The notes under the pieces: model-generated
Seen by the model: the letters and a program-made list of their open reading frames with translations, nothing else
Told to the model about the DNA's origin: nothing
Database searches by the model: none
Shown: positions 56,273-57,821 of the stretch, piece after piece
Layout of the letters: each line of letters opens with the position of its first letter
How positions within the stretch are numbered: position 1 is the stretch's first letter
Made by a program: the position numbers and the translations under genes
From: Methanospirillum lacunae
GTDB taxonomy: Archaea > Halobacteriota > Methanomicrobia > Methanomicrobiales > Methanospirillaceae
NCBI RefSeq assembly: GCF_003173355.1
Contig: NZ_QGMY01000002.1
Span: 868,001 to 932,000, forward strand
Length of the DNA: 64,000 nucleotides
Reading direction: 5' to 3'

Positions 56273-57445
56273 TTATTTAAAGTAGAAGATATCGGGACCG
56301 CTTGCAAGATCACATGCTGCAGATGGCATACGTGGCTTAATCCGGCCAACGTCTGGTGTTTTGGGTGCACGAATCTTTTGATCCATCTCTTCGAGCCTTA
56401 CACGGTATGGGTGCTTCGGTTGTGCGATGGCATCTCCATTCTTAACACCGGTCATGATAGCAAGCACGCGAACCTTACCTTCCATATCATTGCGGATTCT
56501 TGCTCCCCAGATGACATCCGCATGGGGATCAAGTTCATAGGTCAGGGACGATGCAATCTCTTCAGACTCTATCAATGTCAGATCACTGCCACCGGTGATA
56601 TGGATAAGTGCACCAGTAGCGCCACGGTAATCAATATCGAGCATCGGATTTGAAAGACACTCACGAACAACACTTTCAGCCTTGTTCTGTTGTTTTGACT
56701 CACCGACAAGCATTGTTGCGACGCCACCCTTACTCATTATTGCCCTGACATCTGCATAGTCTATGTTTATCAGGGATGGTTCGGTGATTGTTTCAGTGAT
56801 ACCTTTGACAGTCTCTCCGATCAACTGATCCATAACAGAGAAGGACTGAGCCAGCGGGAGATTTGGAACAAAACTCTTGAGCCTGTTATTGTCAAGCAGA
56901 ATGACAGAGTCACAGGACTTTGCCATGGCTTCAAGTCCGTCTTCAGCTCTTATCAGACGTGCTTTCTCAACATCGAATGGGTAACTGACCATACCAACAA
57001 CGATTGCACCCTGATCTTTTGCAATCTGGGCCACAACTGGCGCTGATCCGGTACCGGTACCTCCTCCCATACCAGCGGTGATAAAACAGAGATCAACAGA
57101 CTCGAGGAGAGTTTCAAGGGTCGGACGTGCCATCTCAGCAGCTTTTCTTCCGACATCCGGATATCCACCTGCTCCCAGACCCTTGGTAAGGCTCTTTCCG
57201 ATCAAAATCCGCTTGTCAGACTGGATCATGTCCAGATGCTGTTTATCGGTATTGATCGCAATAGTCTCGGCTCCTGAAACCCCCATGTTATGAAGCCGGT
57301 TGATCGTATTGTTCCCTGCACCTCCACAACCTATGATGACAATTCTTGGCTGCCCGTCAAAATCATCTTCATAGTTCTGCATGGAACATTTCATTTCCTT
57401 CTCGCGTTCGGAATTTATTACCGCGGCATTAATGATACTCTGCAT
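56273..57445 (-). CDS. ftsZ2: Cell division GTPase FtsZ (FtsZ2 type)
   Basis: This 390-residue tubulin homologue forms the division ring. The nucleotide-binding motif [10 protein letters not shown] lies near 122-131, with '[15 protein letters not shown]' at the start of the Rossmann fold and 'VWGARI' near the end. An N-terminal extension of about 30 residues ([18 protein letters not shown]...) and the phrasing of the core resemble haloarchaeal FtsZ2, which acts in constriction, more than FtsZ1. GAGGGGG lies 8 bases before the ATG. It starts 18 bases after the stop of the 56-residue CdrS gene, so they form one operon. Subfamily assignment is from memory of family sequences. Confidence 0.93.
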
Positions 57446-57463
57446 ACTTAAATCCCCCTCAAT

Positions 57464-57634
57464 CTAAAATGACAGTTGATCACTGTCTGAGAGAATGCGG
57501 TTAGCCCGCTTCTCGATGAGCTCTCGAACGGCATCTCTGATGGCTTCAGAGATGGTGGGAAACTCACCGGCATCCACCATCTTCTCAAGCACGCTGATCT
57601 GCTGCTCTGGTAGTCTGATGGTGATACGTTGCAT
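57464..57634 (-). CDS. cdrS: CdrS-like ribbon-helix-helix regulator (56 aa)
   Basis: ATG at 57632-57634 to TAG at 57464-57466 gives 56 residues: MQRITIRLPEQQISVLEKM, then DAGEFPTISEAIRDAVRELI and a polar tail. The first strand (QRITIRLP) and the two helices are a textbook ribbon-helix-helix DNA-binding domain that works as a dimer. Size, sequence and position just upstream of ftsZ2 match CdrS, the haloarchaeal cell division regulator whose cdrS-ftsZ2 linkage is widely kept in euryarchaea. It should control division genes and possibly itself. At 56 residues it is easily missed. Confidence 0.85.
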   Translation of the reverse strand: MQRITIRLPEQQISVLEKMVDAGEFPTISEAIRDAVRELIEKRANRILSDSDQLSF

Positions 57635-57653
57635 GGTTGTTACCCTCAGTGAT

Positions 57654-57714
57654 CTGACATTTGTCAGTCACATGTCGGCTTAACGTCAGACATATGGGCG
57701 ACACCAGTCAGACA
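57654..57714 (-). promoter_or_regulatory. Operator-like repeats in the cdrS leader
   Basis: CTGACA at 57654-57659 and TGTCAG at 57662-57667 form an inverted repeat with a 2-base spacer. GTCAGACA appears twice, at 57685-57692 and 57707-57714, 22 bp apart (two helical turns). All share the core GTCAG/CTGAC. They lie between the TATA box and the cdrS ATG, where a bound ribbon-helix-helix dimer would block transcription. CdrS itself is the obvious candidate ligand. Confidence 0.5.
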
Positions 57715-57740
57715 CAACGAGATACACTTACTAGTATTCA

Positions 57741-57756
57741 TAGATATTTAAATTTT
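57741..57756. promoter_or_regulatory. Shared divergent TATA box for cdrS-ftsZ2 and cobD
   Basis: TATTTAAA at 57745-57752 reads TTTAAATA on the minus strand, an exact archaeal TATA consensus, placing the cdrS transcript start near 57722 with an 88-base leader. On the plus strand TTTAAATTTT gives a slightly weaker box with a start near 57778. The two transcription units therefore seem to share one small promoter block. Confidence 0.5.
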
Positions 57757-57821
57757 ACTTTTTGATTTTGGTTAAAAATCCCATACCTGTATATCTGGTT
57801 ACAACCAGAGATCTGCAGATA

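Follow-up and report, generated by a model that had tools for sequence, protein, structure and literature searches.

A conserved, operator-like array of 11-bp repeats before cdrS-ftsZ2 in Methanospirillum lacunae and other Methanomicrobiales

The closest described counterparts of the locus studied here are the CdrS-FtsZ2 gene pairs of the haloarchaea Halobacterium salinarum and Haloferax volcanii, in which, as in our locus, a short ribbon-helix-helix (RHH) gene lies directly before ftsZ2. RHH proteins contact DNA via alternating residues of the N-terminal strand, and dimers of the RHH proteins MetJ and Arc bind cooperatively to adjacent operator boxes. According to the accessible text of a 2020 report, cdrS-ftsZ2 synteny extends across Euryarchaeota and is widely conserved in Halobacteria and Methanomicrobia, and CdrL is restricted to Halobacteria, its sole binding location in Hbt. 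salinarum being upstream of cdrS-ftsZ2 (PMC7439475). ChIP-seq of CdrS in H. volcanii yielded 18 sites and a symmetric motif, and the targets given in the accessible part of that report include ftsZ1 (motif at -50), dacZ, PanA, PsmB, Cdc48d and a PRC-domain protein. Its Table 1, which gives the 18 sites, does not list the promoter of cdrS (PMC8406309). Autoregulation is therefore not the rule in haloarchaea. The same text states that repression of cdrS lowered ftsZ1 (PMC8406309), so that CdrS looks like an activator in H. volcanii. The repeat array described below bears on how archaea with FtsZ adjust the level of their division proteins.

The RHH gene before ftsZ2

We analyzed a 64,000-nt stretch of the M. 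lacunae genome (NZ_QGMY01000002.1, positions 868,001 to 932,000 of the forward strand), hereafter the window, in which the following features adjoin one another:

57464..57634, minus strand: cdrS ortholog encoding an RHH protein of 56 aa (open frame, Pfam, NCBIfam, purifying selection, model)
57446..57463, minus strand: gap of 18 bases between cdrS and ftsZ2, with a Shine-Dalgarno-like stretch, GAGGGGG, at 57459-57453 (read from sequence)
56273..57445, minus strand: ftsZ2, 390 aa (Pfam Tubulin and FtsZ_C; TIGR00065, 413 bits; FtsZ2 by tree)

The initial annotation had proposed a complete RHH frame at 57634-57464, 18 bases upstream of ftsZ, and both parts of that claim were borne out. The frame is open from ATG to TAG over 56 codons and encodes MQRITIRLPEQQISVLEKMVDAGEFPTISEAIRDAVRELIEKRANRILSDSDQLSF, residues 3-42 of which matched Pfam RHH_1 (E 2e-9; 37.5 bits, the curated cut-off being 20.5). 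As the ftsZ frame starts at 57445, the gap comprises exactly the 18 bases 57446-57463. The pN/pS ratio of cdrS was 0.13-0.28 in nine comparisons with relatives, and a tenth relative (L032) differed by 5 synonymous and 0 non-synonymous changes; the frame is under purifying selection with a protein-like substitution pattern. The predicted model of the protein (pLDDT 84.7) begins with an extended N-terminus, which is followed by helices at residues 10-21 and 28-54, and a fold search with the model returned RHH antitoxins (ParD) and NikR chains (best E 0.019). Both the RHH_1 match and these fold matches describe a single CopG-type RHH domain, as in CdrS in the broad sense. When 23 CdrS proteins of Methanomicrobiales, other families and haloarchaea were aligned, the residues shared by all 23 included R3, T5, R7, P9, Q12, G23, P26, S29, E30, R33 and R37. 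The window and haloarchaeal proteins have the N-terminal MxRxTxRxP..Q core in common, whereas the tail of the window protein is shorter.

The best NCBIfam match of the window protein was CdrS (NF058555; 65.5 bits, E 3.2e-18), which was ahead of the NikR (27 bits) and ParD (26 bits) models. The score of 65.5 does not reach the cut-off of 100 bits of NF058555 (TransRegCdrSHalo, an equivalog model), so we call the protein an ortholog in the broad sense and not an equivalog member. The name of the model points to haloarchaea and its cut-off is passed in 79 of 392 genomes of the phylum, for which reason the window protein was not filed in the equivalog. The CdrL architecture (RHH, CdrL middle region and zinc ribbons) is absent, the protein being 56 aa of RHH only. 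NF053762, the model of the aCcr1 family of cell cycle regulators, which like CdrS are archaeal RHH proteins that regulate cell division, was not among its NCBIfam matches. The neighbors of cdrS are ftsZ on one side and a divergent class I/II aminotransferase gene on the other; Pfam analysis of the ORFs around cdrS found no toxin gene of the kind that accompanies ParD/VapB-type antitoxins.

Besides two CetZ-like proteins, the genome encodes two FtsZ proteins. When these were placed in a tree (22 rows, with a long-branch warning), the window FtsZ grouped with ten haloarchaeal FtsZ2 and the second FtsZ of the genome with ten FtsZ1 (support 100/100). Together with the NCBIfam result, this grouping upheld the proposed CdrS-type identity, and the assignment of the gene as a CdrS ortholog in the broad sense, that is, an RHH gene syntenic with ftsZ2, is supported.

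With the window protein as query, a CdrS match was found in 213 of the 232 genomes of the order, in 132 of the 135 with at least 90% completeness and at most 5% contamination, and once in the window's own genome. Three good genomes (G001, G141 and G154) were without a match, possibly by real loss or an assembly gap. A query with the window FtsZ was used to fetch 80 named loci, from Methanospirillum, Methanoregula, Methanolinea, Methanoculleus and others, and cdrS lay directly before ftsZ in 79 of them; the exception, L081, is due to a contig cut, as its sequence begins inside ftsZ. The claimed conservation of this linkage held in these loci of the order, and the 18-base gap, the tree and the 79 of 80 loci all place the window gene directly before ftsZ2. 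All 79 relatives start with ATG and encode 58 aa (72 loci), 56 aa (6) or 54 aa (1), and the gap to ftsZ is 8-21 bases in 77 of them and 173-177 bases in L097 and L098. The long gap of those two loci holds a further small frame that is alike in both.

Of the two outcomes that the initial annotation had said would count against it, neither lack of conservation in relatives nor a different RHH family such as an antitoxin beside a toxin was encountered, given the matches in 213 of 232 genomes and the lack of an adjacent toxin gene. Its description of the gene as hidden was overstated: cdrS-ftsZ2 synteny in the class Methanomicrobia has been in print since 2020, as the available text of that report states (PMC7439475). 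The arrangement is already known, and the window adds one more genome to it.

The 11-bp array and its conservation

Just outside the interval 57464-57634 lies a series of 11-bp units whose consensus core, TGTCWGACA, is a palindrome. The array occupies the space between the TATA box and the start codon of cdrS, its last unit ending 14 bases short of the ATG:

57745..57758, minus strand: predicted BRE/TATA element in the promoter of cdrS-ftsZ2, reading GTAAAA TTTAAATA, with the TATA-like part at 57752-57745 (sequence)
57649..57714, minus strand: predicted CdrS operator, an array in which an 11-bp unit with the consensus core TGTCWGACA occurs six times (sequence, mismatch counts, shuffles, relatives)
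57714-57704, minus strand: unit 1, 1 mismatch to the 9-mer TGTCWGACA
57703-57693, minus strand: unit 2, 3 mismatches to the same 9-mer
57692-57682, minus strand: unit 3, 1 mismatch
57681-57671, minus strand: unit 4, 4 mismatches
57670-57660, minus strand: unit 5, 1 mismatch
57659-57649, minus strand: unit 6, 2 mismatches

Going by the customary spacing of TATA box and transcription start in archaea, transcription of cdrS-ftsZ2 is expected to start near 57723, just before the array. The TATA-like element lies before cdrS, and 18 bases separate the two genes, which we predict to be carried on one transcript. Bacterial sigma-70 promoter patterns were also scanned and are uninformative in an archaeon. 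Units 2 and 4 are degenerate (3 and 4 mismatches) yet in register. The window has four in-register boxes before cdrS, and when the 130 bp in front of the gene were dinucleotide-shuffled 5000 times, no shuffle reached three.

The array adjoining cdrS had been missed in the earlier reading of the window. In the literature searched, mainly the running text of open-access papers, neither the array nor autoregulation of cdrS was found, and the matches listed in a search of paper texts for the letters of the box were unrelated. The operator-like array is apparently unreported so far, and is what the locus adds to the known cdrS-ftsZ2 arrangement.

The array was analyzed in 69 non-redundant cdrS upstreams, that is, the 79 named loci minus 10 near-duplicates. 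There were 4.97 boxes per 170 bp upstream of cdrS compared to 0.73 in shuffles, and box pairs spaced by 11, 22, 33, 44 and 55 bp numbered 142, 159, 110, 53 and 52, respectively, against 0.04-0.26 expected. All 69 upstreams had two to five in-register boxes (three to five in 65 and two in 4), whereas among 5826 control windows of 130 bp from the same loci, two in-register boxes occurred in 16 and three in none. We also studied 20 loci of seven further families, which belong neither to the order nor to the core haloarchaea; they were hand-picked among strong CdrS matches, and families with weak matches (such as f9, f10 and most of f8) were left out. In all 20, cdrS preceded an ftsZ, the match to which began 4-43 bases further on (157 bases in L325), and in-register boxes numbered at least three in 15, two in four and one in one (L324); of 4000 shuffles for these loci, two boxes were seen in 64 and three in none. 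The array is conserved across the order and most of the checked loci of the seven further families.

The array was also specific to cdrS on the scale of whole genomes. A three-box pattern (at most 3 mismatches) had 57 sites in 36 genomes compared to 3 for the reversed pattern, and by coordinate comparison 49 of the 57 were at cdrS, in 24 genomes. The remaining sites were before the gene of a 106-aa protein (6 sites in six genomes) and in a repeated element of one genome, G207 (2 sites). At this threshold the pattern was absent from 9 of the 36 genomes, and three more matched only at the 106-aa gene. A two-box pattern gave 13 sites in the window's own genome versus 2 for its reversal. A regulon was considered on this basis and rejected, as the sites beyond cdrS form no coherent set; four are in copies of one repeated element. 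The ftsZ1 gene of this genome is without a box, the best match in the 1.4 kb before it having 4 mismatches.

The six genomes in which the gene of this conserved 106-aa protein lies behind a three-box array (G140, G158, G159, G193, G194 and G195; L344 and L347-L351) belong to the window's family, and the boxes precede the TATA-like element of the gene by about 100 bp. The own-genome copy of the gene (L203) is without boxes, and the protein had no match in Pfam (first 80 residues) or NCBIfam. We predict from the boxes that the gene is a second CdrS target in this family.

The box in haloarchaea

In ten haloarchaeal genomes, the best match to the dyad GTCWGAC-N4-GTCWGAC within 120 bp before ftsZ1 had 0 mismatches in three, 1 in six (G474 among them) and 3 in one (G388). 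It was always 45-49 bp before the start codon, upstream of the promoter and its TATA box, and the best match in 310 control windows from the same loci had 3 mismatches once and at least 4 otherwise. The box of the window seems to be the CdrS motif of H. volcanii, an identification made by position and targets and not by the published motif letters.

The dyad (at most 1 mismatch) occurred at 83 sites in eight whole haloarchaeal genomes versus 9 for the reversed pattern. Sixty stretches were fetched around part of these 83 sites, and eight of their ORFs were run through Pfam. Among the 60, ftsZ1 was at the dyad six times, and the dyad preceded PAN1 (L258) and a PRC-barrel gene (L294), both of them types of CdrS ChIP target, as well as the genes of TBP (L293) and a CetZ-like protein (L281). 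Many stretches had no recognized target, and with eight ORFs run through Pfam dacZ, psmB and cdc48d were not recognized among the 60. The box provides a means of predicting CdrS targets in genomes that lack ChIP data.

Two observations from these stretches concern other genes. In four haloarchaeal genomes a bactofilin-like (polymer-forming) gene, a candidate division or shape gene, is beside a CdrS-type dyad (L276, L288, L295 and L313). A CdrS-type dyad also stands 23-37 bp ahead of the start codon of haloarchaeal cdrL (L290 and L303), suggesting feedback from CdrS to CdrL.

The upstreams of haloarchaeal cdrS itself were of a different kind. In 30 loci, those of the best-scoring CdrS matches, GTCWGAC boxes were few, and a perfect GTAAGAC-N4/5-GTCTTAC palindrome was present within 130 bp of cdrS in 28. 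Genome-wide, GTAAGAC-N4-GTCTTAC (at most 1 mismatch) occurred 10 times in eight haloarchaeal genomes, and 8 of the 10 were mismatch-free, one per genome, at cdrS. We infer that this single site per genome would fit the single CdrL site reported for Hbt. salinarum. Haloarchaeal cdrS thus lies behind GTAAGAC/GTCTTAC palindromes, in a network with CdrL, whereas the window cdrS lies behind a GTCWGAC array; the dyad is what the window array shares with haloarchaeal ftsZ1. CdrS of H. volcanii does not have its own promoter among its targets as listed in Table 1 of the ChIP-seq report (PMC8406309).

Mode of action, alternatives and a multi-copy element

From the arrangement of the promoter we consider it probable that CdrS dimers line up on the array, repress cdrS-ftsZ2 and so set the FtsZ2 level. 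On each box a single CdrS dimer would make contact via R3, T5 and R7, which are invariant residues of the beta-strand, and dimers stacked approximately one helical turn apart would bind cooperatively. Since the array begins shortly after the position at which transcription is expected to start, its occupation by CdrS would block the promoter or escape from it, and because this promoter is its own, CdrS, together with FtsZ2, would be held near a set level. Where boxes are upstream of the TATA box, as at haloarchaeal ftsZ1 and at the 106-aa gene in the six genomes, CdrS would more likely act as an activator. The proposal resembles MetJ and Arc in its adjacent boxes and, as predicted for CdrS, in cooperative RHH dimers. 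It differs in that MetJ boxes recur every 8 bp and those of the window array every 11 bp, and in that MetJ needs a cofactor whereas the window CdrS is without a cofactor domain. The box TGTCWGACA, its fixed 11-bp spacing and its recurring promoter make binding and reporter tests simple.

It is unlikely, although to be taken seriously, that CdrS binds the array and activates its own operon in a positive feedback. The lowering of ftsZ1 on CdrS depletion in H. volcanii (PMC8406309) and the activation of ftsZ2 by CdrS described in the 2020 paper (PMC7439475), each as far as the available text goes, speak for activation. However, the window array is downstream of the TATA box and the expected start, which is the usual site of archaeal repressors, and the dyad at ftsZ1 is upstream of the promoter.

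We give slightly less credence to the array being bound by another, unlinked regulator, with CdrS not at its own promoter at all. Such a reading could draw on Table 1 for H. volcanii, where CdrS is not reported at its own promoter (PMC8406309), and on the occupation of the cdrS promoter by CdrL in Hbt. salinarum, as described in the available text (PMC7439475). The latter text, however, reports CdrL as absent outside Halobacteria (PMC7439475), and the box is the dyad of the haloarchaeal ftsZ1 promoter, which is bound by CdrS in H. volcanii according to the accessible part of that report (PMC8406309). In addition, the regulator gene at the array was cdrS in the loci examined.

Very improbable, and dropped as a main explanation, is that the repeats work as RNA, as a leader structure of the cdrS-ftsZ2 transcript rather than a DNA operator. 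The leader does fold better than shuffles (z -2.39), as expected of any palindrome set, but at haloarchaeal ftsZ1 and the 106-aa gene the boxes are outside the transcript, upstream of the TATA box, and the strict 11-bp spacing is maintained. The chance that the frame encodes an orphan antitoxin of ParD/CopG type is negligible, and this reading was dropped. Among solved structures, ParD antitoxins do come nearest in both sequence and fold, but there is no toxin gene next to the frame, the place before ftsZ is fixed in 79 of 80 loci, and the CdrS model beats antitoxin models by about 39 bits.

Returning to repression by stacked CdrS dimers, we tentatively speculate, at somewhat less than an even chance, that autoregulation through the 11-bp array is ancestral for the cdrS-ftsZ2 operon among these archaeal lineages and serves as a cooperative gauge of the level of division protein. 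The haloarchaeal array would then have been rewritten to GTAAGAC/GTCTTAC for CdrL, and with the old box left at ftsZ1, cdrL, PAN and others, CdrS, at first a repressor acting mainly on its own gene, would have become a global regulator. The box, its fixed spacing and the promoter at which it recurs thereby provide a concrete scenario for a possible rewiring of the CdrS-CdrL network in haloarchaea.

A further box-bearing element is present in multiple copies in Methanospirillum. It consists of TATAAAGAAA or similar, immediately followed by a two-box CdrS-type site, and then about 80 conserved bases without an evident frame. Three loci of the element had no match in Rfam, and it is possibly a small RNA. 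At least three copies are present in G207 (L193 and L195 among the loci), and the genome of the window itself (G000) has four strong ones, located as follows:

C14:70223-71219 (L142-L144 and L234-L236) and C7:296353 (L149 and L237): multi-copy element, four strong copies
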